From NCBI GenBank assembly GCA_021773835.1, contig JAJFJQ010000063.1, forward strand, positions 1-64,000: a DNA stretch of 64,000 nt. The letters run 5' to 3'. The position numbers and the translations under genes were made by a program. Shown piece after piece: positions 202-27,575 of the stretch. The stretch's first letter is position 1; each line of letters starts with the position of its first letter. The DNA comes from Gammaproteobacteria bacterium. Lineage in GTDB: Bacteria; Pseudomonadota; Gammaproteobacteria; Ga0077536. Below the pieces are notes generated by a model that worked only from the letters and a program-made list of their open reading frames with translations, did not search any database and had not been told where the DNA came from.

Positions 202-483
202 CGTTAGCTAGCGTCGTGGATCACAAGCCAACTGCGCTGATTGACGTGCGTCGATAGAGGCGTCTATCGAACGTTCCGGGCGACACTTAGTCATAGCTGA
301 CTTTAGGCGACCGTGCTAAGCTTCGCCGGAGCTTGCCGGCCACGAACGCGGCTATACAATCAAAGGCTTATCTAATTTGTTTGATAACGAACTGGAGTGT
401 CGACATACAAGCTTGGTTTTCCCCGCGCTACAGCGGCGGCGGCCAGCGGTCCTGCTGACTATTTCTCCAACTAACAGGCCATT

Positions 484-1779
484 TTGATCCCAACAATATC
501 AACATACTTGTCCGGTTGGTTTTCACGCCAACATAGCGGTGCGTTATCCGAAACTGCGCGGGCACCAGCTCCGAAACTCGGACGCGTTGCACAGCGTATG
601 TCGCTGCAATTCGGCCGATTGGGGGCTCGTACGCCAGTGTCGAGTTCCGCGGAAATCACTTACCGGACGCAGATATACACATCGATTCACGAAATAGACG
701 CGGGATCTTGGGATGCGATACTGGGGCACAATGGGTTGATTCGCTCACATGCGTATCTGGCCGCAGTCGAAGCAGCGTCAATTGAGGACTGCCAATATTT
801 CTACCCGGTAATAACCGATTCGAATGGGCAGATTGTGGCGCACGCGTGTGTCTATACGATTGCGACGGATTTCGCCCAATTGTTACCGAAGTCGTTGGCG
901 TGGTTTCCGCAAATTACCCGTCGGATCTGGAAGCGTTTTCTGCACGTACGTGTTACAGAATGCGCTTCTCCGCTGTCAGCAAGTCACTCGATATCGATAA
1001 TGCCAGGCGCAGACCGCAAGAACTTAATTAAAAAGATTGGCGAAGCGGTAAATTCGATTGCCCGAACCCAAAGCAGTAGCCTCCTAGTCGTGCGAGATTT
1101 TTTGACGGACGATAGGGACGATTTCGATACGCTACTACGTGACGGCTACAATTTAGTTTCTAACATGCCGCTCGCGCGTATTCGGGTGCGGTGGAATAGC
1201 TACGAAGAATACCTCTCGAGCATGCGCTCGCGCTATCGCAAAGACGTCAAACGGCGTCTGAGGCGAGCCGCAAAATCGGGGCAGGAAGTGCGCGTTTTAG
1301 AATCATTTGGCGAGCAGTCCGACCTCTGGGTGGAGCAAGCTCGTACTGTTCAAGAAAATACCAAAGGCTTCAAGCGAGAAATTCTCCCGCCCGGTTACTA
1401 CCAAAACATGGATTTGAAGCTCGGTGAGAAAAGCCTACTCGTCGCCGCGAAGCGGGATGGGCGTATCGTCGCCCACGGTATGGTGCTTCACGATGACTCC
1501 GACACCATCGCAACATACTTTGGGCGTAATCGAGGGCCAGCAAGCCAAGAATGGTTCCACCTTGTTAACGAAGTGATCCGCATCGGCATAGACCGCAAGA
1601 GCGACTATATCAATCTCGGGCTCGGATCTTACGACGCGAAGTCAAATGTAGGCGCCGACGTGGAGCCATTGTTTGTCTATAGTAAGAGCACGATAGCCTG
1701 GGTGAATTGGCTAATGAGACTTATACCGCGCACCATGGATTTTCCCGTTAAAGAGCCCAAACGGGTTTTTCACGAATAA
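484..1779 (+). CDS. FemAB/GNAT-like acyltransferase (Acetyltransf_6 type)
   Basis: This 431-residue protein has the layout of the Acetyltransf_6 (PF13480) branch of the GNAT fold, whose members transfer acyl or aminoacyl groups, often in polysaccharide or cell-wall pathways. The signature helix of this branch, SMRSRYRKDVKRRLRRAAKSG-like, starts near residue 242. The acyl-CoA-binding strand with VAHGMVLHD lies near residue 328, and GLGSYDAKSN follows. The frame opens with TTG at 484; an ATG at 598 is an alternative start, but residues before about 60 look poorly conserved in composition. The substrate cannot be inferred, because the neighbours on the other strand are an exporter and a hydrolase. 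Confidence 0.7.
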   Translation: MIPTISTYLSGWFSRQHSGALSETARAPAPKLGRVAQRMSLQFGRLGARTPVSSSAEITYRTQIYTSIHEIDAGSWDAILGHNGLIRSHAYLAAVEAASIEDCQYFYPVITDSNGQIVAHACVYTIATDFAQLLPKSLAWFPQITRRIWKRFLHVRVTECASPLSASHSISIMPGADRKNLIKKIGEAVNSIARTQSSSLLVVRDFLTDDRDDFDTLLRDGYNLVSNMPLARIRVRWNSYEEYLSSMRSRYRKDVKRRLRRAAKSGQEVRVLESFGEQSDLWVEQARTVQENTKGFKREILPPGYYQNMDLKLGEKSLLVAAKRDGRIVAHGMVLHDDSDTIATYFGRNRGPASQEWFHLVNEVIRIGIDRKSDYINLGLGSYDAKSNVGADVEPLFVYSKSTIAWVNWLMRLIPRTMDFPVKEPKRVFHE

Positions 1780-5166: not shown

Positions 5167-6324
5167 CTAGCCGGCATTCGCCGCAGCCTGGACTGCCTGC
5201 GTGAGACAACGATGAAAATGTGTCAATGCCGGCTCATTGGTGCCGAACGTGATGTGACTTTGTGCTTGTGAATGGAAGCCTCTTTGAATAGTTTCGCCAA
5301 CTGGAAAGTCTTCTTCCTCTACGACGCCAACAACGAGATCTAGGTTTTTCTTCCAATATTGTTTCGTTTTCTCAGTTTCAGCGGGCTCTGGCGTATAAAG
5401 ATCCATACGAACGACCGAGCGCTCCGGGTCATCGGTGCATGGATAAATATGCCACGCTTCTACGTGGTCGAGTTGCCACACGAGCACAGTATTCGGGAAT
5501 AAAACGTAGATACCCACGATGTGTGACAGGATGTTCCAGTCGGATTTGTTATAGGCTCTTAATTCATTAATCGTACGGCGAGCGCTCACGAGCCTAAAAT
5601 TTTCTCCCCAAGTGTCAAATGTCGAGAGATTGTCGTAGAAAATCGGGCAAATCGAATCTTTATGCAAAACGCAAAAATGGTATGACTCCAGGAAAGTGTC
5701 AACGACCAACTTCCAGTTCATCTGTCGGCGAATGATATAGCTGTCAAAGTGGTGAAAAGAGGCTAAATTGTAAGCCGCCAATTCACCGGCAATACCGTTT
5801 AGTTTCTGACCAATGTCGACAGATTGGTCTGGTGAAGGGCAGACCCACAACAGGCCGTCTTGCTCGATCACCGGAAGGCGAGTGAGGCCATGTGTTTCTC
5901 GTGGCATTCCGCCAAATGCCGAATCTTGTGGGCGGGCGATGAGATTACCGTGCAGGTCATAGGTCCACGCATGGTAGGGGCATACGAACGACCTGGCTTT
6001 GCCGCCGTCTTTTGCTACTGCTGACCCCCGATGCCGGCAGACGTTGAGGAAGCCGTGGACTTTATTTTGCGAGTCCCTTGTAAGGAGAATTGGTACACCG
6101 GATAGGGAATCCGTCATAAAACTTCCGGCGTGCGGAAGTCGCGCACTCAACCCAAGACAGAGTAGTTGGCTCCGAAAAAATAAGTTTTTCTCGATTTCAG
6201 CTTGTCGTTCACAGATATATTCTGATACCGGTTGTTCGTATATCTCTGCACCAAGTGCCGTTGTTTTAGTGTCGATATAGTCGAGCAGCCGGTTACCCAC
6301 GACAACTTGTTCACTTTGCAACAC
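5167..6324 (-). CDS. Rieske non-heme iron oxygenase, alpha subunit type
   Basis: A 385-residue ring-hydroxylating-type oxygenase. The Rieske 2Fe-2S ligands are CRHRG near residue 95 and CPYHAW near residue 115. The mononuclear iron site is seen in DTFLESYHFCVLHKDS near residues 205-220, with both histidines present. The usual bridging Asp/Glu lies just before them. Such enzymes hydroxylate or demethylate aromatics, quaternary amines or sterols and need a separate reductase, which is not encoded nearby. The substrate is unknown. Confidence 0.85.
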   Translation of the reverse strand: MLQSEQVVVGNRLLDYIDTKTTALGAEIYEQPVSEYICERQAEIEKNLFFRSQLLCLGLSARLPHAGSFMTDSLSGVPILLTRDSQNKVHGFLNVCRHRGSAVAKDGGKARSFVCPYHAWTYDLHGNLIARPQDSAFGGMPRETHGLTRLPVIEQDGLLWVCPSPDQSVDIGQKLNGIAGELAAYNLASFHHFDSYIIRRQMNWKLVVDTFLESYHFCVLHKDSICPIFYDNLSTFDTWGENFRLVSARRTINELRAYNKSDWNILSHIVGIYVLFPNTVLVWQLDHVEAWHIYPCTDDPERSVVRMDLYTPEPAETEKTKQYWKKNLDLVVGVVEEEDFPVGETIQRGFHSQAQSHITFGTNEPALTHFHRCLTQAVQAAANAG

Positions 6325-7800: not shown

Positions 7801-7823
7801 AATCCGCGAAACGCGAAACCGTA

Positions 7824-7852
7824 GGGCACTAGACCCAGTAAATCTAGTGCCC
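7824..7852. terminator. Bidirectional hairpin between convergent genes
   Basis: GGGCACTAGA (7824-7833) and TCTAGTGCCC (7843-7852) form a perfect 10-bp stem with a 9-nt loop between the convergent HDOD and RpfF-like genes. There is no clear T-run on either side, so termination efficiency is uncertain. Confidence 0.6.
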
Positions 7853-7869
7853 GAGAGTTCCATAATGGC

Positions 7870-9828
7870 TTAATAAGCCGTCATAAATAATCGCTGGTCT
7901 TTACCAAGGGCGTGTCTGCCCTGGGCGTTGAGCACGTTGTCTATCAGCAGATAATCTCCAACTTCGAGTGGCACTTCGATGGTTACGCGCTGATGCACGG
8001 CTGTGATCTCGTCAAGATATGATTGTGGAATCGCTGATCCATCACTGAAGTTTACGTCTAATGATGCCGGCGATTTGACGATGCTAAATAGTTTCGACAA
8101 TAGTGATTTTCGCTCGATAAAATTATTTGACGTAGATTTAAACAAATGGACTTGGTTAAACCACACCCGATCTCGGGTATCGGTGTGGGAGACGCAAGCC
8201 GGCGCGCTATTCCAAATCTCGACGCTGCCATTTGAATGCCATAGGTAGCTCAAGCCATTGTCTCGGCATTTATTTTCTACGACGTCTCTATCGGACGTTT
8301 TGAAAATATTCTGCCACGAATGAACTCTACACGATTCGAGCCCTGTGTCCGGTTTGTAGCTATCAATCGTTGGGAACAGTCGCCGATAAGTGATGCCCCG
8401 TCGTTCAAATTCCAATATGAGTTCGTCGCTGAGGCTTTCGTACATAGAACGCGTGTTCGCGAGCGTGACCGTACCGCCCGGCTGTGGCGCGTTGGCATCG
8501 CACGCCAGTATTTTAAATGACGGAAAAATTGTGCAATCCGAGTAGGCATTGTGCAGCGCCTGTGCGGTCTCAGATAACCAACAATCATCCTCAAAGACAT
8601 TCTCGTACAGCGCTGCGGGAGTTGGAATCGAGCGCGCAGCGTTAAATTGTCGGTCTGGGCGTAAGGCGGCACATAGCTTGCTTAATGAACCGGCACCATT
8701 ATTTGAGAAACCCCGCATTAATATCGCTCCGTGGCGCGATAGGTTTTCGTATACCCAGGGACGCGAATTTTTTACAAACGCGAAGAATTCCGTTTCATTG
8801 AACCGTCTTACCGTCTTTGGGGTGATTACTAAGGGTGACAATTTCCCGAACTCGGCGTCCGGAATCATTTGTTCGCTTATCAGGTCTCCGAAATCGATGG
8901 TCCGCCTTAGGTGGGTTACGGTTGCCTTTGCCGGTTTTTCCGATGCGCGTTTCTGCGCTTCCAAGATGTAACCCATTGTGCGCAGTTGGCGGCGATTAAG
9001 ACTCAACGCTTGGTCGACCCACTCATCAACGGAATCGAGCAGCTGGTTGCGGTCGAGATCTGCAAACCGGGTCCGATATTGTAAGGTCGTCTCATTCGAC
9101 GCAGTTTCCATCCAAGCGTCTAACGTTTGCTGCCCTTCGCCTTGTTCTGCAAGAATGTCGATTACACCCATTTCGTGCAACATCTCTGCTGAGTACCGGT
9201 TAGTACTTCCAATCAGTCGTCTAGCGCAATCCGAACCCGCCCGAGCGCTCAATAGCGCATGGCCACCCATACCGGGAAACAGTCCAAACAAGGCTTCGGG
9301 AAATCCGAACATGGCACCCTTTTCAGCGACTAATAGGTGCGCTGACAGCGCTGCTTCGAAGCCGCCACCTTGTGCCTCTCCTTGAACTAGTGCGACTGTC
9401 GTCAAATCCTCGACGTTTGCCCCCTGTGTGTTTGTCCAAATCGCGTCGAGCGAGGCGTGGGCATAGTGGGCCAACTCATTGCGATTGTTTTTATCGATAC
9501 AATCGCGGAAGCGAGCGAGATCACCACCTAGCGAAAAGATCCCAGGCCGTTTTGATGCCATAATTTTGAAATTAACCGGGGGCGCATGGTCGGGGCTTCG
9601 AGCGAGCGCAGTTGAATACACGTTGTCAACGCTCAACAGGTCTTCCATCATTTCCAACGATACGAAGGCCGGCGCACGGTCTGTGAGGTAAATCCACAGT
9701 GCACGCCTGCTTGAGTCGTAGCTCAGGTCGAGGTAATCAGTGTTGGGAATTTGGACAGTGCGGTTAGGTTGCTGCCGTGCACTTTCCGACGGCGCAAAGC
9801 TTCGCTGTGAAGCAATCACATTAGACAT
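7870..9828 (-). CDS. RpfF-like crotonase (DSF synthase family) fused to a TauD-like domain
   Basis: A 652-residue two-domain protein. Residues about 30-310 are a crotonase closest in pattern to RpfF, the DSF synthase: FSLGGDLARF near 96, GGGFEAAL near 155, FGFPEALFGLFPGMGG near 176 and YSAEMLHEMGVID. Both glutamates used by RpfF (in GGGFEA and FPEALF) are present. RpfF makes cis-2-unsaturated fatty acid signals from 3-hydroxyacyl-ACP. Residues about 330-652 have the TauD/SyrP-like 2-oxoglutarate oxygenase pattern (GGTVTLANTR, GDYLLIDN), but the usual H-x-D/E is HNA near 425 and the distal His of the HGR motif is Gln (AQGR near 637). The domain is therefore either catalytically altered or dead. 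An ACP and a ketosynthase gene lie divergently next to it. Confidence 0.85.
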   Translation of the reverse strand: MSNVIASQRSFAPSESARQQPNRTVQIPNTDYLDLSYDSSRRALWIYLTDRAPAFVSLEMMEDLLSVDNVYSTALARSPDHAPPVNFKIMASKRPGIFSLGGDLARFRDCIDKNNRNELAHYAHASLDAIWTNTQGANVEDLTTVALVQGEAQGGGFEAALSAHLLVAEKGAMFGFPEALFGLFPGMGGHALLSARAGSDCARRLIGSTNRYSAEMLHEMGVIDILAEQGEGQQTLDAWMETASNETTLQYRTRFADLDRNQLLDSVDEWVDQALSLNRRQLRTMGYILEAQKRASEKPAKATVTHLRRTIDFGDLISEQMIPDAEFGKLSPLVITPKTVRRFNETEFFAFVKNSRPWVYENLSRHGAILMRGFSNNGAGSLSKLCAALRPDRQFNAARSIPTPAALYENVFEDDCWLSETAQALHNAYSDCTIFPSFKILACDANAPQPGGTVTLANTRSMYESLSDELILEFERRGITYRRLFPTIDSYKPDTGLESCRVHSWQNIFKTSDRDVVENKCRDNGLSYLWHSNGSVEIWNSAPACVSHTDTRDRVWFNQVHLFKSTSNNFIERKSLLSKLFSIVKSPASLDVNFSDGSAIPQSYLDEITAVHQRVTIEVPLEVGDYLLIDNVLNAQGRHALGKDQRLFMTAY

Positions 9829-10236
9829 CTTGTAAACCCTCCTCCGGGTAAGTCGCGGATACCAGCATTTAAAATTGCTTGTAGCGATAGCGACTTTTTT
9901 CGAACCAACGACCCTTTTAATACTGATGCGGTCTTTTGTTGGTTCTTGGGCGAACGTGGAACTTTCCGTTTCCCACGCAGTTCTATTTATAATTCACGCA
10001 CCAAACGTGTGCCGTCCAGAGAAGCTACGGAAGACGTAATTTTCGTCGCATCACCAATTTGGGGTAGTCAATTTCGAAGTGTGATGAGGTTCACATTGCG
10101 AAAATCAAGGATAATGCGTATAAATAACCTAAAAACAGTAGTTTATAGCGTTAAATTTATTTGAATTATTATATATATCAGATTAAAGATAAAAGTTAAT
10201 CTTCGTCCCCTATCTATCTAAAATATAAGCAATCCT
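9829..10236. other. AT-rich divergent intergenic region
   Basis: About 400 bp separate the RpfF-like gene and the ACP gene, which diverge. The half next to the ACP gene is strongly AT-rich (tatatatat near 10170-10178). This is where promoters for both directions should lie. I see no protein gene in it. Confidence 0.5.
10180..10202. promoter_or_regulatory. Operator-like inverted repeat upstream of the ACP gene
   Basis: AGATTAA (10180-10186) and TTAATCT (10196-10202) form a perfect 7-bp inverted repeat with a 9-bp spacer, 35 bp before the ACP start codon. Size and position fit a dimeric regulator site, but no regulator can be assigned. Confidence 0.4.
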
Positions 10237-10506
10237 ATGAAGCTTAATCGCGACGAGACGCTCACTGCGGTATTGGAAAGCGTTGCTGAAACGCTCAGTA
10301 TCCCCTTGACCGATCTTACTGAGGACACGTTGATTCGGGAGGACCTCGAAGCCGATTCGATGGACGTTGTCACGTTGATGGTTTTGCTAGACGACAAATT
10401 CGACGCGGAATTTAATCCAGAGGACATTCCGGACGAGGAAGTGTCAATCCGTTGGGTGGTCGATCACATCATTGAAAAACTGGAGAGCGCCGCGAATGGA
10501 TCGTGA
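10237..10506 (+). CDS. Acyl carrier protein, dedicated type
   Basis: An 89-residue acidic protein with the ACP fold and the phosphopantetheine attachment serine at residue 41 in EADSMDVVTL. A short helix IPDEEVSIRWVVDHI completes the domain. It is not the housekeeping AcpP, whose usual fab neighbours are absent. Its stop codon overlaps the GTG start of the ketosynthase (GTGA), indicating translational coupling. Together they probably make or hold an acyl chain, plausibly the substrate of the RpfF-like enzyme encoded divergently. Confidence 0.9.
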   Translation: MKLNRDETLTAVLESVAETLSIPLTDLTEDTLIREDLEADSMDVVTLMVLLDDKFDAEFNPEDIPDEEVSIRWVVDHIIEKLESAANGS

Positions 10507-11867
10507 CCAATAATCGCGTTGTCATAGCGGGCCTCGGGGTGGTGTCCGCGCTCGGCAATAACGTCGATAAATTTTGGGAAGCGTGTCTAGCGGGGCACTC
10601 TGCGATCGAATCGATACCCGAACAATGGGCCCACTACTACAAATCTAAGAGCCAGTCGTGGTCGCCATTGACGCTGCCGGACTATAGCGTGTATGGATTA
10701 ACGCGCGCCGATACCTTGCGCTACGATCGGGTTGTATTGAACGCGATCACTGCAGCGGACGATGCGATCGCTGATGCCGGATTCGAAAAAGTAGAGCACG
10801 ATGCGCGGGCGCGGTCGTATCGCCTCGCCGGAGTCAATAGAGATCGATTTGGTGTCTTTATCGGTTCGGGCTTGGGGTGTATTTCATCCGCCTTTAACAA
10901 CTACGTCCCGCATTTGCTCGGTAATGCGTCCGAGGATCTATTTGGGCCCGACCCTGAAGTTCGTAGCGACATGACAGCCGAGCTACGGACGAACTTACAG
11001 GGGTTCCCGCGGGTCAGCCCATTCGCGAGTGTGCAATCGATGGCGAATGCGATTGGTGGACTCCTATCAATTCGATACGGCTCGCGAGGTGCAACCGAAA
11101 CATTGATCTATGCCTGTGCGGCTGGAACAGCGGCTATTGCACGCGCGTATCGCGCAATTCAAACCGGGGAGATTGATGTTGCTATCGCCGGTGGTAGTGA
11201 ATATTACGGCGACCGTGCTGGCGGTGTGTTCATGGCATTTGACCGTCTACAAACATTGGTTTCATCCGAGCAGCCACCGGAGCGCGGAAATTGCCCGTTT
11301 GACGAAGCTCGAACCGGGTTCCTATTTAGCCAAGGTGGTACTGGGATGGTGCTTCTGGAATCGGAATCTCACGCACGCAAACGTGGTGCGTCATCGCTTG
11401 CAGCTATCAAAGGCATGAGCATAACTTCTGATGCGCACTCGCTTGCGGCAATTTCAGAAGAAAACAATGCGATCGAATTGATGTTTAGAAATTTGCTCCG
11501 TGATAGCGAGCTACAACCGGAGGACGTTTCATATATAAACGCACATGGCACTTCGACCTTACAGAACGATCCAATTGAGGCAAATATTTTAGGGCGGGTC
11601 TTTCCCAATAGACCCTACATTAATAGTACGAAATCTTTGCTCGGCCACACGATCGGGGCAAGTGGGGCGATTGAGTGCATCGTAACCATACTTTCAATGC
11701 GCGACGGAAAGATCCACCCGTCGCGGAACTTAGAGAACCCTATCGCTGACTTAAAATTCGCGACCGACGTTTGTACGGCTCCCATCGAATTTGCGGTTAC
11801 GCACAGCTTTGGCTTTGGTGGGCATAACGCGGGGTTAGTGTTACAAAATATTTCTAGCGAGACTTAA
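10503..11867 (+). CDS. Beta-ketoacyl-ACP synthase (FabF/KAS II-like)
   Basis: A 454-residue condensing enzyme with the full Cys-His-His triad: Cys205 in YACAAGTAA, the first His near 347 in NAHGTSTLQNDPIEA and the second near 380 in LLGHTIGASGA, plus the GFGGHN C-terminal motif. It should condense malonyl-ACP with an acyl primer. The GTG start overlaps the ACP stop. At 454 residues it is longer than FabF (about 410) and carries an insert around residues 85-160, as seen in specialised or aryl-polyene/lipid type synthases. The product chain is unknown. Confidence 0.9.
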   Translation: MTNNRVVIAGLGVVSALGNNVDKFWEACLAGHSAIESIPEQWAHYYKSKSQSWSPLTLPDYSVYGLTRADTLRYDRVVLNAITAADDAIADAGFEKVEHDARARSYRLAGVNRDRFGVFIGSGLGCISSAFNNYVPHLLGNASEDLFGPDPEVRSDMTAELRTNLQGFPRVSPFASVQSMANAIGGLLSIRYGSRGATETLIYACAAGTAAIARAYRAIQTGEIDVAIAGGSEYYGDRAGGVFMAFDRLQTLVSSEQPPERGNCPFDEARTGFLFSQGGTGMVLLESESHARKRGASSLAAIKGMSITSDAHSLAAISEENNAIELMFRNLLRDSELQPEDVSYINAHGTSTLQNDPIEANILGRVFPNRPYINSTKSLLGHTIGASGAIECIVTILSMRDGKIHPSRNLENPIADLKFATDVCTAPIEFAVTHSFGFGGHNAGLVLQNISSET

Positions 11868-13937: not shown

Positions 13938-16541
13938 CTAATACAGCGCCCGGATCCCTTCGGTGGTTTGCGCAAACGTCGCCAGGATATCGTCGTGTAA
14001 CTCAGTATGGTCGCGCACTAACCGCTGTGTATCGGCCATCTCAATATTACGCGCCGTCTCAGCGAGTTTCTCCGCCCCAATAACAAGACACGCCCCGGCG
14101 AAGGCGTGCATGGCATCGCGCGCTGCCTGTACCTTGCTCACCTCATCGCAGTCGATCAACGTAGCAATATAGCTCGAGCCATCCGTAATAAAATCTTCAA
14201 AGAAACTCGCTCGCTCCGCCTCGTTCATGTAGGAGACGAGTTCTTCTACCGCGGTGGTATTGAGCAGGTCCGACCCGATGGTGGTGGATTGCGCCGGTGC
14301 CGGGAGGGACTCGTACGGAAACCCACCGCTATTGGTGTCGCTTATTACCGCGATCCCGTCCTCGATATCATTGTTCGCCGCGACCGAGTCGATGACATCG
14401 ACCAGCTGTCTTGGTGTGATGGGTTTCGTCACAAAGGCATCGATACCATTCGCACGAGCTTCCTCGCGGGCCTCAACCCGGCTGTCGGCCGTCATCATGA
14501 TCAGTGGGATGCGACCATCTGGTTCGAAATGCGAGAAGTTATACACCTTGGCAACTTCAATACCGTCGCGATGCGGCATATGCATGTCCAGTATTGCCAG
14601 ATCGTAAGTCCCCTCATGGAGGGCTTCCAAGGCTTCATCGCCGTCGCCGACAATGGTGCAGCGATGCCCCGCATCTTCTAAGACCATCTGTGCGATGCGT
14701 TGGTTGGTGGGGTTGTCTTCCGCCACCAAGATGTGGAGTCCCTTAACACTGTCCGCCGACGGGGCAAACTGCTCTGTCGCGTCGTGTCGCAGGGCGCTCA
14801 CCATGTTCAGCGTTCGGCTAACGAGTTGCTTATCGTCGAGATCGGCGATGTAGGCCGCATACCCCGCAGCGATGGCCGACGATCGGTAGGCATCCTCTCC
14901 ACAAGCGTATACCGGGATGATCCGATCGGTGAAGATCGCCGAGATCGTGCGCACCACACCGCCTAAGTTCTCGGCAAATTGATCGGCATTGACGAAGATC
15001 GCCTCCGGCACTGTCCCGTGCTTATCGGCACCGTGGAATTCCGACAGACTGGCAGCGGTGGGAAAGTTGACTATTTTGGTGCCGAATTGAGATAAAACGG
15101 TGGCGAGATGTCCCTCGGCTTCATCGAAGCCAATACCCGCAACCGTGAACGGGTACAGTGGCGAGACGTCATCGCGCTCAAGCAGTTTCTGCAAATCAAC
15201 GTCAATGGTGAACTTCGTGCCCACACCCTCGGTCGACTCGACGTCGATGTGCCCATCCATCAATCGAATGAGCTCTTTGGCGAATGCCGTACCGAGCCCG
15301 GTGCCACCATGTTTGCGCGTCATCGGTGAATCGGACTGGACGAACGGCTCAAAGATATTGGCCAGCGCGTGCTTTGGTATCCCGGGACCGGTGTCGCTTA
15401 TCTCAAAGCGGACCGTCACGGTGTCGTCTGTTTCGCCTTTGTACAAAACCCGCACAGCTACCTGACCGGCCTCGGTGAACTTCACCGCATTGCCGCACAG
15501 GTTGATCAACACCTCTTGCAATTGATGTGGCGAGCCGATGAGCGCGTTGTGGATCTCAGGGTCGATGTAGACCTGCAGTGCCAGCCCTTTCTCTAAAGCC
15601 TGTGGCCACAGAATATTTGCGGTATCGTTGACCACTTCGTGGAGGTCCATTGGCTGCTGTTGCAGCGCGATCGACTTCGACTCGAACTTACTGATATCGA
15701 GGACACGATTGATGAGTTCGAGCAACGAATTTGATGAGGTGGAAATGATCCGGATCATCTCTCGTTGCTTCGGTGAGGCGGCTGTACCGCGCAACAGATC
15801 CGAGGTTGAAATAATGCCGTGCAGCGGTGTTCTGAGTTCGTGGCTCATCATCGCCACGAAGTCACTCTTCGCCCGGTAGGCTAAGTCCTTTTCAGCGACC
15901 GCCCGTTGCAGTTGCGCAATTAGAAAACCGACATAGGCTGGGACAATAATGAGACCGAACATCATGCCGGCAAATAGTCCCGGGTTGTTAGACCAAAATG
16001 GCGTATACCATCCCGCGACTGCAAAGCAGCTCACCGCCAACGACAACTCAGCACACAGATACCTCAGACCGTATCGAATTCCGTAGCCAACGGAAATCCA
16101 GATGTACAACGCGAAAAAGCCGGCAAAAGTAGCGCCGCCGAAGTAGATAACCCACGTAATGAAAAACGTGTCGCTCAGCATGCTGACGATACGCTGGCTA
16201 ACCCGCCAGATATGTTGGGATTTTCGTTCGTTTAATTGAGTTGCCCAAAAATACAAAATGGCCCCAGCCGGTAAACCAACTACGGCTGTGGCTAGGACCT
16301 TTACAGAGTCAATCTCTGGGTCTAGTCGTGCTGCGATTACGGCGAGCACGATTAGCGAGACGTGCATCCAATTTCGTATTTTTGCTTGTGCGACCTCGTT
16401 CAGTGTGGCGGCCGAAACCGCGAACGACTCCTCGTGTCTACTTGAACTGGCTATGCTGGGGTCGGATGCCGATCCATTACGAACCTTCGGCTCACGGTGA
16501 AGCCGCTTATCGGAAGCGCGTTTAGTTCGTGGAGAAACCAT
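13938..16541 (-). CDS. RpfC-type hybrid sensor histidine kinase (TM input, HK, receiver, Hpt)
   Basis: An 867-residue hybrid kinase. The N-terminal membrane region (about residues 50-210) has the RpfC-like pattern of a helix with an Asp, then a segment ending in GYGIRYGLRYL. It is followed by the H-box SHELRTPLHG near 230, ATPase motifs (INLCGNAVKFTE, DTGPGIPKHALANIF, GGTGLGTAFAKELI), a degenerate receiver-like spacer, a receiver with the phosphoacceptor Asp in LAILDMHMPHRDG near 650, and a C-terminal Hpt with His in AMHAFAGACL near 811. RpfC senses DSF and phosphorelays to RpfG. No RpfG gene is in this window. ATG at 16541 is preferred to a TTG nine codons upstream. Confidence 0.85.
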   Translation of the reverse strand: MVSPRTKRASDKRLHREPKVRNGSASDPSIASSSRHEESFAVSAATLNEVAQAKIRNWMHVSLIVLAVIAARLDPEIDSVKVLATAVVGLPAGAILYFWATQLNERKSQHIWRVSQRIVSMLSDTFFITWVIYFGGATFAGFFALYIWISVGYGIRYGLRYLCAELSLAVSCFAVAGWYTPFWSNNPGLFAGMMFGLIIVPAYVGFLIAQLQRAVAEKDLAYRAKSDFVAMMSHELRTPLHGIISTSDLLRGTAASPKQREMIRIISTSSNSLLELINRVLDISKFESKSIALQQQPMDLHEVVNDTANILWPQALEKGLALQVYIDPEIHNALIGSPHQLQEVLINLCGNAVKFTEAGQVAVRVLYKGETDDTVTVRFEISDTGPGIPKHALANIFEPFVQSDSPMTRKHGGTGLGTAFAKELIRLMDGHIDVESTEGVGTKFTIDVDLQKLLERDDVSPLYPFTVAGIGFDEAEGHLATVLSQFGTKIVNFPTAASLSEFHGADKHGTVPEAIFVNADQFAENLGGVVRTISAIFTDRIIPVYACGEDAYRSSAIAAGYAAYIADLDDKQLVSRTLNMVSALRHDATEQFAPSADSVKGLHILVAEDNPTNQRIAQMVLEDAGHRCTIVGDGDEALEALHEGTYDLAILDMHMPHRDGIEVAKVYNFSHFEPDGRIPLIMMTADSRVEAREEARANGIDAFVTKPITPRQLVDVIDSVAANNDIEDGIAVISDTNSGGFPYESLPAPAQSTTIGSDLLNTTAVEELVSYMNEAERASFFEDFITDGSSYIATLIDCDEVSKVQAARDAMHAFAGACLVIGAEKLAETARNIEMADTQRLVRDHTELHDDILATFAQTTEGIRALY

Positions 16542-17276
16542 GTCGGCGGCAGCGATGTATTCCCGCAAGAGGCAGTAAATTAGACATCAAATTATAGCGT
16601 ACCCCGCCTGACGAATTTGTCGCACGAGTGGCTAAAATTGGCTCTATATAACGAATTTCGCCTAAAACTAGCGTGATTGACCTTTGTTCACTTGATTAAG
16701 CGTTGATTGTTGAGCCGCAGCGGGCAGTACGGCAGGGTTCGTGACGAAAACGAATGTGTCGGGAAGAAACCGATCGGCATGCGAATTTGCAATTTTCGGA
16801 TCGCTTTCCTAGGTTCCGAGTTTCGGTAAACCACCCTTGGTATAAATCGAAAATGGTCGCTATTGTGAACTGGGCCGTCTGCGCAGCAGCCAGGGAGTTC
16901 AAATGAAATAGGGCATCAAATAGCCGCCAACCGATGGTTCGAGGGGGCGCTATAGTCGGTCCTCCAGAGCTCCGAGAAGCGTCACATGTCACTACGTGTA
17001 GTAAGGTCGTGTCGCGTCGGTTCCGATGCACGCTCGCATTAACAACTGGGTCAATTATCTAGCTGAACGAAGCGATACTCACGAGCAATACGAGATAACA
17101 TAGCATTCTCGAACCGGGCGTTCGGTGGGTTCGGACGCTTTCGTTGAAAAACTTGAACATGCAACCGGTAGACGACTTAATAAAGCGTAATGTAGGACAG
17201 CTGGCCATCGACACAGAAATATTCAACTGGAGACATTCCGAAATAGATCGCCTGTCCTGGAATTCCTGAATATCGA
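16542..17276. other. Intergenic stretch without recognised gene
   Basis: About 730 bp separate the sensor kinase and ligase genes. Short open frames exist on the minus strand, but their composition (Arg, Ser and Cys rich) looks non-coding. I see no tRNA, repeat or clear terminator. Confidence 0.4.
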
Positions 17277-18890
17277 TCAATCGAGGTTTGGCTTGAGATC
17301 GCCTTCTTTGAACATGTCCGCTAGCTTGAATTTCTGAATTTTCCCCGAGGCCGTCAGCGGGAAGGTATCGACCTTGATCCAAAGCTTCGGTGTCTTATGT
17401 GGCGCGAGATGCTCGCGCATATAGTCATGGAGTTCTGCGGCACTCAACTGCTCACCCTCGTTGAAACGCAGGAACGCGGAGACTTGTTCGCCCCAACGTT
17501 CGTCGGGGATCCCCACCACCGCGACCTCGGCGACCGCTGGGTGATCGAAAAGCCGTTCCTCGAGTTCTCGCGGATAAATATTCTCGCCGCCGCGGATGAT
17601 CATATCCTTGAGGCGGCCTTCCACGTAGCAATAACCTCGCTCATCCATGCGACACAAGTCGCCGGTGTGCAGCCAGCCCTCGGAATCGATGGTTTTGGCG
17701 GTTGCTTCTTCGTTTTCGAAATAGTCGGTCATCACCAGGTAGCCGCGGGTGCACATCTCGCCGGTCTCACCGATAGGGAGCGTGTCGCCGCTCTCCGGAT
17801 CGATGATCTTAACCTCGGTGTGCGGCAACGCCGTGCCGAGCGATTCACTCTTGTCTTTCGGCGAATCGTCAAGTTTGATCATCGTGATGACCGGAGAGGT
17901 TTCGGTCTGGCCGAACAAAATCGCGAATGACACACCCATTTCCGCTTCAATACGTTTGACAAGATCAATGGGGACCGTCGCCCCGCCTGAGACAACGACG
18001 CGCATAGAAGAAAGATCGCGTGGATTTGCGGCATACGCTTCCAACAAGGCCACGAGCATTGTCGGCACCGCCAGCGTATACTCGCCGCGTTCCTGCTCGA
18101 TGAGATCAAGAAATAAATTGGGGTCAAACTCGGGCAACAACACCAACGTGCCCTGAGTTTGCACAGTGCCAAGTACGCCGGCAACGCAGCCGCCGGTGTG
18201 AAACAACGGCATCGCACAGATGTCAACCGTGCCATCTCCAGCACCTCGTCTGATCGCCGTTAGCCGTGCGTTATTAGTGATCCCATAGTGATGCAGGTGC
18301 GCGCCTTTAGGAAAGCCGGTGGTACCCGAGGTATATTGAATCATCACTGGGTCGCCCGGATTAACGTCCGGTAGTTTAGTGTTGGTGTCACCCCGCGCAA
18401 CGAATGTGGAGAAATCGTCCAGGCAGATTCGCTGACGCAATTCGGGCAATTCCCCAGCGACTTCGGCTATCGATGCGCTCATCGGATTGCCACGGAAGCT
18501 CGTTTGATAGAACACTCCAACGGAGCGCGATTGACCGAGCACATACTTTAATTCGGCGGGCTGGTACGCAGGGTTAACAGTAACTAAGACCATGCCACTG
18601 AGGGCGATTCCAAACTGGAGAATTACCCACTCAGGACAGTTGCCGGACCATACCGCGATGTGATCGCCGGGCTCGAACTGGTTTAATAATGCCCGCGCCG
18701 TGCGCTCAGAGTCGCCCAGTAGCTCGGAGTAAGTCCAACGCCGCCGCGCTGAGCGATCCGCATTACCTTCGATCAGGGCTATCCCGTTTGGTTTGGCGGC
18801 CGCGGCTGCACGTAGCGCATCGCCGCAAGTCGAATCCAATAAGGTTCCGTCAGCTTGTAACGGCCAAAAAGATTCACTCAGTGTAGTCAT
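17277..18890 (-). CDS. AMP-forming fatty acyl-CoA ligase (RpfB/FadD-like)
   Basis: A 537-residue adenylate-forming enzyme. The P-loop YTSGTTGFPKGAHLHH is near residue 190, the A5 motif LFGQTETSPV is present, and GWLHTGDLCRMDERGY and TASGKIQKFKL mark the hinge and catalytic lysine. It activates a carboxylic acid to acyl-AMP and then to the CoA thioester. In xanthomonads the ligase RpfB is encoded next to rpfF and removes DSF-type fatty acids; this gene is the natural candidate for that role here. ATG at 18890 follows AAGGAA with good spacing. General fatty-acid or short-chain acid activation cannot be excluded. Confidence 0.85.
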   Translation of the reverse strand: MTTLSESFWPLQADGTLLDSTCGDALRAAAAAKPNGIALIEGNADRSARRRWTYSELLGDSERTARALLNQFEPGDHIAVWSGNCPEWVILQFGIALSGMVLVTVNPAYQPAELKYVLGQSRSVGVFYQTSFRGNPMSASIAEVAGELPELRQRICLDDFSTFVARGDTNTKLPDVNPGDPVMIQYTSGTTGFPKGAHLHHYGITNNARLTAIRRGAGDGTVDICAMPLFHTGGCVAGVLGTVQTQGTLVLLPEFDPNLFLDLIEQERGEYTLAVPTMLVALLEAYAANPRDLSSMRVVVSGGATVPIDLVKRIEAEMGVSFAILFGQTETSPVITMIKLDDSPKDKSESLGTALPHTEVKIIDPESGDTLPIGETGEMCTRGYLVMTDYFENEEATAKTIDSEGWLHTGDLCRMDERGYCYVEGRLKDMIIRGGENIYPRELEERLFDHPAVAEVAVVGIPDERWGEQVSAFLRFNEGEQLSAAELHDYMREHLAPHKTPKLWIKVDTFPLTASGKIQKFKLADMFKEGDLKPNLD

Positions 18891-18893
18891 CAA

Positions 18894-19398: not shown

Positions 19399-19741
19399 TT
19401 TTGTAAATCTTTGTTTTTAAATAAAACATGCAGGCGCCCGTTGCAGCTGAGCGCATTACCGTGCACAACAATGCACTACTCTTCCCCGCAAAAGTCCCGC
19501 ACACGTAATTTTAGAATTAAATTTTCCTCTACAGTTATCTGAGTTCGGAGGCTCGGCTATCGCTGCGATCTTAGAGTTGGCCCCGTAATAGTCCGCTTAA
19601 CAGTTTTTCGGGTGCGAAACGGACCGGGCCGTCCTGCAGTTCTCGAATTGCGCTTGTCGGTATAACAGAACGTATGAGGACGAAAACTACCGCGGAGCTA
19701 CTATCAGGCACGGAACCCGATCGGTAATACGTTCCCGTTGA
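19399..19741. other. Non-coding left terminus of the island
   Basis: About 340 bp between attL and the first gene. No gene is seen. Such ends normally hold integrase arm-binding or excisionase sites, but I could not define repeats that prove it. Confidence 0.35.
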
Positions 19742-21310
19742 CTATTGCAGCATTAGCAATCTTTTTTTAGGCGCACTCGTTTGCTCCGCAGAGCTACCAA
19801 CGATCATCATCGAACGCGCAAGTAACCACCAGGCGAAAACTGGCCCGAATACCGTGGCAAAGGCTAAGCGGGACGCAAGCATTTTTCCAGATTCTGGAAG
19901 TAGCGTTGTGCAGGCTCGCGATAATTGTTCTGTGTCGATTCGATCTCGTAGAAAGGCGACAACAAACGGCCAAAGTTTGACGGCTGCATTTGCTCCAGAA
20001 GTTGATGCAGCAGCTTCTAGTGGGTCAATCCGACCAAGTTCTCCAACCAGCGTATCGAAGTTTTCCCGAGTAATTTCCGTAATTGCCTCATTCGAAATCC
20101 CTGAAGCCCAAACCAAATCATCGTATCCGAAGGCCTCCGCAACTTCGTCTGTCGAGACTATCGGGTACTCAGGGTACTTCGCCAATGCTCGCTCTAAGTA
20201 GCCAAGTTGGTCCGTTGCCTTCAATGAGACCTCAACAGTTTCACCAGTTTCTACATTCTCGAAAATTAGATCGCTACCTGGGTACTGCTCGTCGTCGTGG
20301 AGTACTGCTTTCCATGCGTCCGAATCCTGATTTTCATATCGCGCCACCATTCTCTCAAAGAGTTTGCCCTTCAAAAGGTTAATTACCCCTGTCATTTGTG
20401 CCTCTGAATATCGCTCCATGTGTTCGGCAATTTCACTGATAGGTGCATGTGCTAGATCCGGGTAACGATCTCGAATTGACTCGATGAATTCTGCTCCAAG
20501 GGGGCTTTCAAAGTTATGTTTCTCACCCCGAAGCAATAAAATCATTGCTGCAGCTGACGCTAGCTCGCCCCTTAAACGAGGGATGTCAGAAGGAACCTCG
20601 CCCAAAAGCCACCCTTTGAGGCGTTGACCGATTAAGAGCACGTTTGTCGGGTTCAAAGATTGCGCACCGGTGTCGTACTGATGTTTTAGCAAGGCTGACA
20701 CTTCTTCGATCATCCTTTTTGCACTCGTCATGGGAAATGCGAACTTGCGGCCTTCCCGCATTTCCTCAAACATGATCCAAAAGATGACGCCAAACAGATC
20801 AGTTACGATCAGTTGAGTCACCGCAGTGCCTAAACCTGCCACTGGCATAATTGCAGTAACCACTGGGAAAGTTAAATTCAGTACGGCTTTAAACCCGACG
20901 AGCACCAATCCCGCGCTAGCGGCCCATCCTACGACCGTACTAATTGCCTGGTCACGAGACAGACCAAGCCCTAACGCCACTGAAATCGCGTATGCCATCC
21001 AGAGTTCAAGAGCAATTGATACGAATACGCCGACCCCTAACGACCCAGGGAGTCCGGCTATCACTGCATTAACTAACGCGACCTGCGTAATAATCGTACG
21101 TGTATTGCGTGCTTCTCCTTCACCGGGTACTTTGAAAATCCCTTTAACCGGTTCGAAGATGAAATCTCGTAGTACTGGGTATTCAAACAATGTCTCAATC
21201 TTGTTCTGATTAGATCGCAGCCAGGCCGTCGCGCGCTGAATGTTTTCCTGATTTCGGAAGCTTTCGAAACGATCCTTAGCCGCATCCGTAAAATTTTTAT
21301 AGTCAGCCAT
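19742..21310 (-). CDS. Membrane protein with possible nuclease-like segment
   Basis: A 522-residue protein I do not recognise by name. Residues about 75-185 form hydrophobic and glycine-rich segments (IAGLPGSLGVGVFVSIALEL, VVGWAASAGLVLVGF) expected to span the membrane, and another hydrophobic helix lies near the C-terminus (FATVFGPVFAWWLLARSMM). Between them a soluble part contains GKLFERMVARY near 320 and, some 30 residues later, GSDLIFENVETGETVEVSLKA. The spacing of acidic residues and the lysine recalls a PD-(D/E)XK-like or related endonuclease core, but the middle acidic position (S-L-K) is not canonical. It could be a membrane-tethered effector. It is the leftmost island gene. Confidence 0.55.
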   Translation of the reverse strand: MADYKNFTDAAKDRFESFRNQENIQRATAWLRSNQNKIETLFEYPVLRDFIFEPVKGIFKVPGEGEARNTRTIITQVALVNAVIAGLPGSLGVGVFVSIALELWMAYAISVALGLGLSRDQAISTVVGWAASAGLVLVGFKAVLNLTFPVVTAIMPVAGLGTAVTQLIVTDLFGVIFWIMFEEMREGRKFAFPMTSAKRMIEEVSALLKHQYDTGAQSLNPTNVLLIGQRLKGWLLGEVPSDIPRLRGELASAAAMILLLRGEKHNFESPLGAEFIESIRDRYPDLAHAPISEIAEHMERYSEAQMTGVINLLKGKLFERMVARYENQDSDAWKAVLHDDEQYPGSDLIFENVETGETVEVSLKATDQLGYLERALAKYPEYPIVSTDEVAEAFGYDDLVWASGISNEAITEITRENFDTLVGELGRIDPLEAAASTSGANAAVKLWPFVVAFLRDRIDTEQLSRACTTLLPESGKMLASRLAFATVFGPVFAWWLLARSMMIVGSSAEQTSAPKKRLLMLQ

Positions 21311-21410
21311 CGTGCCGAAAAAATACTAGATTTCCTTCGAAATTTAAATGTTAAAATATCAGTCGACTTTAACCCGCCTACTATACGGTAGGAGGGAGAG
21401 CTACCCGAAT

Positions 21411-21438
21411 AGGTTGTTAGGTTGTTAGGTTGTTAGGT
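21411..21438 (+). repeat. AGGTTGTT tandem repeat, 3.5 units
   Basis: Three and a half perfect copies of an 8-bp unit lie in the intergenic region between the membrane-protein gene and the terminase gene. It is a simple slippage-prone repeat that could vary in length between strains. Confidence 0.8.
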
Positions 21439-21585
21439 CTGTGGACAATGTTTCACTGGAACACTCGCCATGGAGTTGTTATGTATTTGACGAGTGTTGT
21501 GATGACTAAAGAAATGGGATGTTACGGCGACGTGAAATATCGTTAATTTTGTCACCACCTATTTTAACAATTGGGTTATCCGAGC

Positions 21586-22014
21586 CTACTCATCTCGCAT
21601 CGAACCGCCCGCCATCTCAAGTAGTTCTTCAGTTGAAAGTGACTCGATATGCTTCTGATATCGTTCTTGTCCGATAGAAAGATTAACCTCCGTCCGTACC
21701 GGTTCGTGGAATCCCAAAATCTTATTGACCTCAGACCACCCCCTCACAATTGCGCTTGGATTCCGGTCCTCGTCCGCGATCTGAATTGCACGCAGGAGAC
21801 CTTCAAGCACGGTTTCACGATCGATCCTGTGGCGCTCTGCAAGATCCTCTAAGCGACGATCTATCACTACCCGTATGTCATCGTGTGTAAGTAAGCGATG
21901 CGCTGTCTGACGCGCACAAGACGCGCTGTATCCTGCTCGAATTGCAGCTTGAGCGCCGTTACGATCTACTAGGTATTCGTCTATAAAAGCGAGCTGATTA
22001 GTGTTGAGATCCAT
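21586..22014 (-). CDS. Phage terminase small subunit
   Basis: A 142-residue protein with the Terminase_2 (PF03592) pattern: LNTNQLAFIDEYLVDRNGAQ, AAIRAGYSASCARQTAHRLL and a C-terminal alpha-helical oligomerisation region ending NKILGFHEP. Small terminase subunits recognise pac/cos sites and hand DNA to the large subunit. The open frame reaches to 22158, but ATG at 22014 is preferred because AGGAG lies nine bases before it and the family begins there. No large terminase or structural gene is present, which in satellites means redirecting a helper phage's packaging. Confidence 0.85.
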   Translation of the reverse strand: MDLNTNQLAFIDEYLVDRNGAQAAIRAGYSASCARQTAHRLLTHDDIRVVIDRRLEDLAERHRIDRETVLEGLLRAIQIADEDRNPSAIVRGWSEVNKILGFHEPVRTEVNLSIGQERYQKHIESLSTEELLEMAGGSMRDE

Positions 22015-22224
22015 CTCATATAACTCCTGATTGTTGCGAAACCCCCTAGTTCCCCAGCCACGAAGCCCGCTGCAGCACGGTGCAACGAGGGCAAGTGCCT
22101 GCGCTTCGCTCCACTTGGTCTGCGCAGCGGCGTAGTCATCTAACTTGGCGGTGGGCATCCGCCGTCTTTGACGAAGGTATATAAATTAGATATCAGGCGG
22201 GGATCTGCGTGTCAAATGCGTCAT

Positions 22225-22256
22225 AAGGCCCGCAATAAAACACGGGCCTTTTTTAT
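22225..22256 (+). terminator. Rho-independent terminator without an upstream gene
   Basis: AAGGCCCG (22225-22232) pairs with CGGGCCTT (22243-22250) and a TTTTTTATTTT run follows, a textbook intrinsic terminator on the plus strand. No plus-strand protein gene precedes it. It may end a small RNA reading from the terminase side or be left over from a lost gene. Confidence 0.7.
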
Positions 22257-22453
22257 TTTCCTCTCTGTCGCCACGCAGACCCACTGCTCGCCCTTCTTCG
22301 GTACGCCGATTGGTGAATACGGTTTCACGGCAGGACTGGAAGCTCGATAAGTGCCCCGTCGGGCGAATCGGGGATGAGAAATTGGATAACGGTTCGTACT
22401 AGGAGGGTATAATAATATGGCCGTCCAGACTCGGAGCTATACGCAGCGAAAAA

Positions 22454-22882
22454 ATGAGAACGCATACCGCACGCGCTTTTTACGCCGTTTCCATGATATC
22501 CCTTTTCGCATTCTTTGGGGCTTTCAACAGCTCGCTCGGCATACAATTTGAGGACGGGGCCAAGGCAATATATTTCTTCGGTGAGGACCGAGACTTTCAC
22601 ACCGTGGTAACTAGTTTATTTTTTATCACGACACTTGCTTTCTTAACTGCGATGCTTGTGTTCCCTGAAGATGTATACAGGGAACGTTATAACCTGCACG
22701 TATATGTGCCAATTACAATAACCTGCCTAGGTTGGGTGGTATTTAGCTTCTCGACAGAGGAAGCAAAGGGAATGCACCAATTCATCATGTATGGGTTTAT
22801 TGGAGCAGCGGTTTTTTGGGGACTGCTCATGTACTTCGCCAGAGGAATCAGGTGGTGCTTCAAGGATGGCGTTTTCAAGTGA
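22454..22882 (+). CDS. Small four-helix membrane protein, unknown
   Basis: A 142-residue protein with four hydrophobic segments (about residues 8-30, 48-70, 80-98, 108-128) and a short charged loop with FPEDVYRERYNLH. I recognise no family. The ribosome-binding site is weak. It stands alone downstream of the plus-strand terminator. An inner-membrane location is expected; in this context superinfection exclusion is possible but unsupported. Confidence 0.5.
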   Translation: MRTHTARAFYAVSMISLFAFFGAFNSSLGIQFEDGAKAIYFFGEDRDFHTVVTSLFFITTLAFLTAMLVFPEDVYRERYNLHVYVPITITCLGWVVFSFSTEEAKGMHQFIMYGFIGAAVFWGLLMYFARGIRWCFKDGVFK

Positions 22883-23362
22883 GTAACCCGCCCATCATCT
22901 AGACTCCACTTCGATCAACGAAGTACCGTCGGGACTACGTTGTACTGATCGTATGATTAGTAGTGGAATCTCCAGCCTTTCAGACTTCAGCCTCGAGCGG
23001 GGTGTCAACGGTGTCTGCAATTCCTGTCGTGCATCTAAGAAGCTTCCTATTGGATCACAATATAAATGCGTACGGCGATATTCCGTTCAGAGCACCCAGT
23101 CCAAGGTTGCGCTGTAAGAAGTACGGCTCGCGTGACTGTGGGATTCGGATTGTTTGGTCGCAAATTTGCCGATGCATGAAAAGTGCGAGCCGTTGACAAA
23201 ATGTTAACCCTTGTCGAACTGATCTTGCGCAGTATCTAGGGCTAATCGAAATCACTCGGAGAAGGTCAAGCGTTGCCGAAAATCCAAAATGTCGGTACAG
23301 TCGGAACGGTGTCAACGAGCGCGCCCACCACGGAGTCGGAAAGGAATCTAGTACGTTCAATC
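22883..23362. other. Intergenic stretch in the island
   Basis: About 480 bp with only short open frames lacking ribosome-binding sites. I see no repeat, tRNA or terminator. Confidence 0.35.
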
Positions 23363-23671
23363 ATGTTGGTTATGGTCCACATGAGATACAAACGCCCGAA
23401 TACTGGGACTTACGTCCTTACCGCCATGCTTATTATTTCGCTTCCGGGATGTTTTCATGACAAGCATGAAACGCCCACACCTCAACTAGCCGAAAGCTGC
23501 TCCCCCACTATGCCGTCAGAAGGGCAAGAAGCACAGATTCCCCACCCAAATACTCCCAGCCAGTGCTTGGGCGTCGTGCTCAAGTGTAACTATTGTGAGT
23601 ACGATCGTCGTGGTAATTTCGTAAAAACTGAATTCGAAATTTGCGGAGCGTGTGTCGGCGCAGATTTTTGA
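23363..23671 (+). CDS. Small cysteine-rich lipoprotein
   Basis: A short basic N-terminus and hydrophobic stretch lead to the lipobox LPGC, so the protein should be acylated and exported. The mature part is about 75 residues, Pro-rich and then Cys-rich (CNYC, CGAC near the end). The open frame extends upstream to a TTG at 23273, but those residues precede the signal peptide; ATG at 23363 or 23381 is more plausible. No family recognised. It is followed by a second lipoprotein gene. Confidence 0.5.
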   Translation: MLVMVHMRYKRPNTGTYVLTAMLIISLPGCFHDKHETPTPQLAESCSPTMPSEGQEAQIPHPNTPSQCLGVVLKCNYCEYDRRGNFVKTEFEICGACVGADF

Positions 23672-23812
23672 CGCTCAAGGCGAATATTTTTCCATTTGAC
23701 GTACTAGAGATTCAAACTATCCATTCATGTAGGCCCCATCTTCAGAGTTTGTGCGCTACTTAGCCGACCAGTTTAACTAGATGGAACTTGTTAACGATGT
23801 TAGGAGAATATG

Positions 23813-24433
23813 ATGCGAAAATCGGCTGAGATTTTCAGTTTGGTTGTGTTGCTTACTGCATGTGGCGAAAGTATTAATGACGCAAAAAAAGCGGCGAAAG
23901 AGGTCGCAGCGGAACTCGGAAAAAATATCGACGTAGTAAGAATTGAACCACGCGTACAAGCCGAATTAGCGCTTGAGCGATTGCGGAACGAGCTCAGACC
24001 AGTAGTTAGCACTTCCGGTAAAGAGGTCACGATATGGCTTAACGCGATCGATCGCCGCGAGTATTATTACATAGCTGGGCGTATGAAAGGGTTGGCACAT
24101 TCCTCGACAGGCAAGGGCAGCGCTCGCGTCTTCATTAAGAGCGCGACAACGGGCAAAAAAGAGGTAGTCGCAATGGGTGACGTAGTGTCCGGCGAAGAAG
24201 GGAAGGATATTGAACTCTTCACGGTAACTGAGGGCGGCCCGGGACACCATACGAAGGATAACGGAATTGTCATATCGATTACCCCGTCTAACACGGTTGC
24301 AATAAGCGCGACCGGAAGTGTCGACGGCGGCTTCGACATCCACTACGTCGAACTTTCTGCATACCTTGTTACGCCTGATGAATTCCGTAAAAAGGTCGCG
24401 GAGCAAGACAACGATGGAAACGGCGGGGCGTAG
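23813..24433 (+). CDS. Lipoprotein, unknown function
   Basis: A 206-residue protein whose signal peptide ends in the lipobox LTAC (about residue 17), followed by a helical AKKAAKEVAAELG segment and a beta-rich C-terminal part (VAISATGSVDGGFDIHYVEL). The start at 23813 has TAGGAG six bases upstream. I recognise no family. With the preceding lipoprotein and the pair at 27095-28070 it makes an envelope-directed cargo group in the island. Confidence 0.6.
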   Translation: MRKSAEIFSLVVLLTACGESINDAKKAAKEVAAELGKNIDVVRIEPRVQAELALERLRNELRPVVSTSGKEVTIWLNAIDRREYYYIAGRMKGLAHSSTGKGSARVFIKSATTGKKEVVAMGDVVSGEEGKDIELFTVTEGGPGHHTKDNGIVISITPSNTVAISATGSVDGGFDIHYVELSAYLVTPDEFRKKVAEQDNDGNGGA

Positions 24434-24622
24434 TCGTATTTTTATTTTAGGGAGGGCGCCATAGAATGTGGCATTAATCGCACGTAGATACGAGCGGTAC
24501 TAAACTTGAACCCCAATTTTAACCAGTGTTACCTCTCCGTCGCCACATACACGCACGCTTCATCCTACTTCGTGATGTACATACTCGCGCGAATATATCT
24601 AAGACGCTTCGAGGCGGGGTTA

Positions 24623-24916
24623 CTATTTAAATAGCGAAACAATTATTGCGAATAGGCTAATGCATATCGCCCACCATGCCCTTCGACCTGCAACACGCGC
24701 CATTTCCATAGAGTCCGCTTCGCGCGCGTCTTCTCGCTTAGCCTCTTGAATCGCTAGCCAACTCTGCGCACGTTTATCGCCGGCGGAGTCCGGATGCCCA
24801 TAGTGGTGAGCTAGCACTTTGTCACGCGCTTCCTCGAATGGGACGGCATCTAGTTCGGCGTGGATTTGGTTTTGAGGTTTGTAAGTGATGTGTACTCCAT
24901 CTTTTAGACTTGCCAT
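24623..24916 (-). CDS. Tail-anchored small membrane protein
   Basis: A 97-residue protein with a soluble helical N-terminus (FEEARDKVLAHHYGHPDSAG) and a single C-terminal membrane helix (WWAICISLFAIIVSLFK). GGAG precedes the ATG. It is the last gene of a minus-strand run that begins at 26414. No family recognised. Confidence 0.5.
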   Translation of the reverse strand: MASLKDGVHITYKPQNQIHAELDAVPFEEARDKVLAHHYGHPDSAGDKRAQSWLAIQEAKREDAREADSMEMARVAGRRAWWAICISLFAIIVSLFK

Positions 24917-25011
24917 GACTCTGTATTCTCCGATAATTCTTGAAGAGCTTCGAGACTGCGCGACGGGGTCCCCCTTTCGACCTTTTGTCTAGTAACGTAG
25001 CAGCTGATTGA

Positions 25012-25551
25012 CTACGGAACCTCTAAGGACATGTGCTCTCTCACAAGCACCATATTTAGCTCGCCAGCTGTTGTGTAATATCGATCGGTAGCGTGCCTTA
25101 TTTCTGTTTTTAGTTCATTTACGACTTCAGTTCCGGGATCTTCAAAATCTAAAATGTCACTAAGTTCTCCAAACACCTCAAAATATTTCTTAACCATCTG
25201 CATACTATCTTCAGTAATCCATAACCGAATGACCGAACGAAGTGGCTGAACAGCCTTGAGTGCTTGATAAGTCCGAGCACCGGCCTGATTAGCCTCGTCA
25301 CTTTTAAAGCCAAACGTCATTACTGAGGTAGTTTGTTCGACGATCCCCATTTCCAATTCTGTCATGTGCTGAATAAAGCTTGATATGGCCGCTCTGCGTT
25401 CTGCAAGATAATCCTTCTTAAGCTCGGTGCGGGTTTGCTTATTTGATACCACCAGCGCTGTAACAGTCGAAGCGATGGCTGAGAAAACGAGGAAGAGCCC
25501 AGCAATCAATGCTGCTGTCACAGTTGCAAATGGTAATAACGTTTCTTCCAT
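25012..25551 (-). CDS. Single-span membrane protein with helical cytoplasmic domain
   Basis: A 179-residue protein with one N-terminal membrane helix (FATVTAALIAGLFLVFSAIA) and a long charged helical region. The arrangement is like many unassigned island-borne membrane proteins. A good AGGAG lies seven bases before the ATG. It belongs to the same minus-strand run as the MtlR-like pseudogene. Confidence 0.55.
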   Translation of the reverse strand: MEETLLPFATVTAALIAGLFLVFSAIASTVTALVVSNKQTRTELKKDYLAERRAAISSFIQHMTELEMGIVEQTTSVMTFGFKSDEANQAGARTYQALKAVQPLRSVIRLWITEDSMQMVKKYFEVFGELSDILDFEDPGTEVVNELKTEIRHATDRYYTTAGELNMVLVREHMSLEVP

Positions 25552-25587
25552 TCTGGCACTCCTAGGGGGCAGAGACTGAGTAGCCCC

Positions 25588-26155: not shown

Positions 26156-26162
26156 CTCAGGT

Positions 26163-27568: not shown

Positions 27569-27575
27569 CAGTCTC

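Follow-up and report, generated by a model that had tools for sequence, protein, structure and literature searches.

Organization of the fusion gene and its locus

The window, a stretch of 64,000 nucleotides of a gammaproteobacterial contig (JAJFJQ010000063.1), contains a gene in which a crotonase domain is joined to a TauD-fold domain, a divergent FabF-like ketosynthase gene, an RpfC-like hybrid kinase gene and an acyl ligase gene (Table 1). The 652-amino-acid fusion ORF at 7870-9828 on the minus strand is real. Pfam analysis showed an ECH_1 match (E = 2.5e-18, residues 89-245) and a TauD match (E = 8.3e-15, residues 346-649), both above the cut-off and in the same frame, which confirmed the crotonase and TauD-like fusion reported in the initial annotation. 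A strong hairpin, common to the fusion gene and the HDOD gene that converges on it, lies about 10 bases past the stop codon.

Table 1. Coordinates of features in and around the fusion gene
Feature	Position	Strand	Basis
Crotonase-TauD fusion ORF, 652 aa	7870..9828	-	ATG start, no internal stops, single open frame
Ribosome-binding-like GGAGGAGGG	9837..9845	-	sequence; 5' of fusion-gene ATG
RpfF/PRK08788-type crotonase domain, residues ~33-300	8929..9732	-	NCBIfam NF006452; RpfF structures
E158, in place of RpfF Glu141	9355..9357	-	structure match, alignment, PMC9864630
E178, in place of RpfF Glu161	9295..9297	-	structure match, alignment, PMC9864630
TauD-fold domain, residues ~332-652	7873..8835	-	Pfam TauD; AF2 pTM 0.76; 1y0z Z 26.4
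H426-N427-A428, first His kept, carboxylate ligand lost	8545..8553	-	homologue alignment, codons
V454, conserved Thr replaced; aligns with Thr of GGDT in E. coli TauD	8467..8469	-	profile and homologue alignment
Q636 in distal His ligand position	7921..7923	-	homologue alignment, codons
Q645 for near-invariant Arg, 9 residues past distal His; presumed 2OG Arg	7894..7896	-	alignment
Inverted repeat/hairpin, terminator-like	7817..7859		between fusion gene and convergent HDOD gene
FabF-like ketosynthase, divergent from fusion gene; ACAAG, HGTST, GHTIG (Cys/His/His) present	10503..11867	+	profile matches
RpfC-like hybrid kinase: membrane sensor, HisKA, HATPase, REC, HPT	13938..16568	-	domains, alignment
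AMP-forming acyl ligase, possibly RpfB-like, weakly supported	17277..18893	-	31% identity to Lysobacter rpf-cluster ligase

The crotonase half was compared with NCBIfam models and with solved structures. It passed the cut-off of NF006452 (PRK08788; 262 bits, cut-off 177). The score against the RpfF equivalog NF053515 was 152 bits and did not reach the cut-off of 550, and therefore this half was assigned to the wider PRK08788 family only. The best PDB matches were RpfF structures (6dgn, 5fus and 3m6m, E <= 2.1e-35; best E 3e-36). In an alignment with 23 relatives, 37 of the 38 conserved columns were kept. Two conserved glutamates of RpfF, Glu141 and Glu161, have been reported to be important in DSF synthesis (PMC9864630). 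Their counterparts E158 and E178, present in all 23 relatives and located within motifs aligned with the RpfF structures, bear out the previous statement that the crotonase glutamates are intact. The sequence of the crotonase half gave no sign of inactivity, and the fusion gene probably makes a fatty-acid cell-to-cell signal. The fusion shares with the DSF synthases RpfF and BCAM0581 its sequence family, both catalytic Glu residues and the linkage to an RpfC-type kinase, but it differs from them in the added C-terminal TauD-fold domain, the divergent ketosynthase and a score under the RpfF equivalog cut-off.

An RpfF-type crotonase was detected, at the threshold used, in 15 of 36 genomes of the order, the window genome included. 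In relatives of the same family the orthologous crotonase (37-46% identity to that of the window) is a separate, standalone gene of about 290-360 amino acids by open frame. In 8 of the 9 neighbourhoods compared, a ketosynthase with 44-49% identity to that of the window lies in divergent orientation to it, and in 7 of these 8 a hybrid kinase homologous to the window kinase comes after the ketosynthase. The divergent pair is also present in the window, together with the homologous kinase, which has the opposite orientation compared with the relatives and is set apart by two intervening genes. At the thresholds used, both the crotonase and the ketosynthase were missing from three genomes that belong to the genus of the window genome. 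The window kinase aligned with RpfC of Lysobacter antibioticus (39%, part of the membrane sensor included), whose rpf cluster contains ligase, rpfF-like, rpfC-like and rpfG-like genes. The window kinase, encoded near the synthase, has the RpfC-type architecture of a membrane sensor with HisKA, HATPase, REC and HPT domains, and it is predicted to sense DSF. Synteny with a ketosynthase and an RpfC-like kinase throughout the family strengthens the earlier description of the N-terminal half as DSF-synthase-like. The locus supports the DSF reading, and the TauD domain seems to have been added in this lineage to an established DSF-type locus.

Other features of these neighbourhoods were also observed. 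A Rieske-type ring-hydroxylating oxygenase gene (5167-6324, minus strand) lies near the fusion gene, with the opposite-strand HDOD gene between them; the corresponding stretches of the relatives showed no such gene next to the crotonase. A likely integrated element at about 19700-39170 adjoins a tRNA-Arg gene (39090-39166) and carries genes for a terminase small subunit, a DUF5906 protein and two HATPase_c_3 proteins, one of which has a weak HSDR_N match; the region 19742-21310 matches the PADLOC candidate PDC-M72B. Downstream of the rpfF-like gene, the contigs of most relatives continue for 0.3-1.3 kb before they end (L076, L077, L079, L080, L082 and, at their starts, L074 and L075), which hints at a repeat at this point. 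A tRNA search at these contig ends gave none.

None of the genomes sampled from the order (36), the class (369), the phylum (398) and another class of the phylum (385) contained a second RpfF-TauD fusion; the samples overlap partly, and one search scored only the best three candidates per genome. Plasmids, phages, viral contigs and a contig scan sensitive to close relatives only also gave none, and a full-text literature search found no description of such a fusion. A 609-amino-acid open frame in L017 was considered as a second fusion and rejected; the frame belongs to a TauD gene that lies, within a siderophore-type cluster, downstream of a thioesterase-like gene. The crotonase-TauD fusion is so far present in one genome among the samples searched.

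Fold and cofactor positions of the TauD half

The AlphaFold model of the TauD half had a TauD-like fold (mean pLDDT 71, pTM 0.76); it was weak at model residues 87-109 and 253-280, and its active-site blocks were of middling confidence. In a full-length model of the fusion protein, the crotonase half was too poor for use. Among the matches listed, the top solved structure was Arabidopsis At3g21360 (1y0z; Z 26.4, 298 residues, 23% identity), and PvcB, IsnB, AtsK and TauD followed at Z 17-19, well below it. SyrB2 was absent among the best 50 listed matches in each of two PDB comparisons, an absence that carries no weight. The sequence relatives of the TauD half are about 21-32% identical to it, and several of them sit in NRPS or AMP-ligase contexts (Lysobacter, Variovorax and others). 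The substrates of NRPS-associated TauD enzymes are carrier-bound residues (PMC7100376). The structural motifs WFNQVHLF, DGS.IP and GD..L.DN were kept in the window domain, which has the same fold and the same WFNQ and DN motifs as At3g21360 and the SyrP-like NRPS-associated TauD hydroxylases, several of which also share its C-terminal length. However, in comparison with these proteins it is without the Glu and His ligands of Fe and the presumed 2OG Thr and Arg, and it is fused to a crotonase.

Alignment with 41-42 homologues showed that four of the five cofactor positions were changed. The position of residue 426 was His in 41/41 homologues and is also His in the window. The position of residue 428 was Glu in 40/41 and is Ala in the window, that of residue 454 was Thr in 38/42 and is Val, that of residue 636 was His in 41/41 and is Gln, and that of residue 645 was Arg in 39/41 and is Gln. 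The HxD/E...H facial triad thus had no match in the TauD half, which has HNA and Q636 instead. An hhalign comparison with E. coli TauD, weak overall, also placed HTD at H426/A428, the GGDT Thr at V454 and the distal His at Q636; this weak alignment put R266 of E. coli TauD at the kept R646, one residue past Q645. Several homologues and the window protein end equally far past the distal His position, so that the change of Arg to Q645 requires no gap. The Arg at this position is presumed from its conservation to hold 2OG in this branch of the family. The position of H639, the His that follows QGR (residues 636-638), was variable among homologues.

The initial annotation had placed HNA near residue 425, had read the distal His of HGR as Gln and had counted one canonical ligand left. 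HNA was found at 426-428, the Gln was confirmed at a universally conserved His position, and H426 was the only canonical Fe ligand kept. The replacement of the conserved Thr by V454 and of the near-invariant Arg by Q645 are further losses, and the original observation was correct and somewhat understated. The only other carboxylate loss observed was in L017, from a Polyangiaceae MAG, where a TauD-like gene of a siderophore-type cluster (10000-10830, plus strand) has HQA for HxE and keeps the distal His. Other conserved residues were lost from this copy, which is degenerate or halogenase-like.

Proposed function and alternative explanations

RpfF-type enzymes dehydrate and hydrolyse 3-hydroxyacyl-ACP, acyl-ACP being the substrate of RpfF (PMC4504480), and the receiver domain of RpfC holds RpfF in check (PMC4504480, PMC9864630). 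The explanation that fits the data best, and that we consider fairly probable, is a DSF-family synthase with an appended TauD domain that lacks the canonical Fe(II) ligands and probably also the 2OG site. The fusion gene would be the DSF-family signal synthase of this bacterium. Homology and synteny suggest that its N-terminal RpfF-type crotonase would dehydrate 3-hydroxyacyl-ACP and release a cis-2-enoic acid, which the nearby RpfC-like kinase would sense. A TauD-fold domain, of a branch with NRPS tailoring hydroxylases that act on carrier proteins among its known members, would have been joined to the C-terminus of the crotonase in this lineage, and it may have lost its Fe(II) and 2-oxoglutarate sites or arrived without them. 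Because these sites appear to be absent, with four of five cofactor positions changed, the domain is not expected to oxidise the signal. A non-catalytic TauD domain, which the initial annotation had offered as one option, is supported by the same losses and is the best reading of the sequence. The domain may still serve to dock or orient acyl-ACP or the product, or it may act on the synthase as a regulator or tune how the synthase contacts the RpfC receiver domain; this role is a guess, which we put forward tentatively. It is somewhat more doubtful that the protein is a signal synthase whose cofactor-free oxygenase-fold module, through acyl-ACP docking or ligand sensing, controls which signal is made or when.

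The main rival to a non-catalytic working domain is a passenger in decay, that is, a TauD domain that was acquired and fused and is losing its function while the crotonase alone matters. Of 31 conserved columns, 10 are altered in the TauD half; the other intact homologues of the set have 0-6 such departures, and no homologue except one degenerate MAG copy has as many. GC at first codon positions was lower in the TauD half than in the crotonase half, and no copy of the domain was found among the order relatives. These data would fit decay. However, the TauD part is still open and in frame, motifs such as WFNQVHLF persist, and the losses concentrate at the cofactor positions, as four of the five are among the 10 departures (hypergeometric about 0.03, a rough value since two positions were known beforehand). 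Decay is considered unlikely. Catalysis of an unusual kind, with halogenase-like chemistry or a metal site rebuilt from H426 and other residues such as H639, is a good deal less probable still. The fold and one His are kept, and the Ala at the carboxylate-ligand position is shared with SyrB2-type 2OG halogenases. In those enzymes, however, the carboxylate alone is replaced, and two His ligands and 2OG are retained (PMC4019311). SyrB2-type enzymes combine HxA/G with two His ligands, whereas the window domain has Q636. A SyrB2-like halogenase is disfavoured because the distal His is missing and, less surely, because the Thr and Arg presumed to bind 2OG have been replaced; the halogenase parallel drawn in the initial annotation is not supported, and the variable position of H639 argues against a rebuilt site.

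The presence of the fusion in a single genome would also agree with a sequencing or assembly error that altered the codons or merged two genes. One base change turns the A428 codon, GCC, into an Asp codon (GAC) and two are needed for either Glu codon; the Gln codon CAG of Q636 is a single change away from His. Several independent base errors at the cofactor codons would thus be required, and in the relatives' stretches the standalone crotonase has no adjoining TauD gene. We regard such an error as highly improbable, the least probable of the alternatives.

If the TauD domain is a working pseudo-oxygenase, it would be a bacterial 2OG-oxygenase fold put to a second use, in docking or regulation during signal synthesis. 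The rpfF-ketosynthase-rpfC-like arrangement conserved in this family provides a testable DSF locus with its own ketosynthase, which could set the chain length. The divergent pairing of the FabF-like ketosynthase with the rpfF-like gene is conserved in the family (L074-L082), and the ketosynthase is a possible dedicated supplier of signal precursor. In L074, a relative in the same family as the window, a fatty-acid desaturase gene (345-1229, minus strand) shares 4 bases with the end of the separate rpfF-like crotonase gene and may be involved in signal tailoring.
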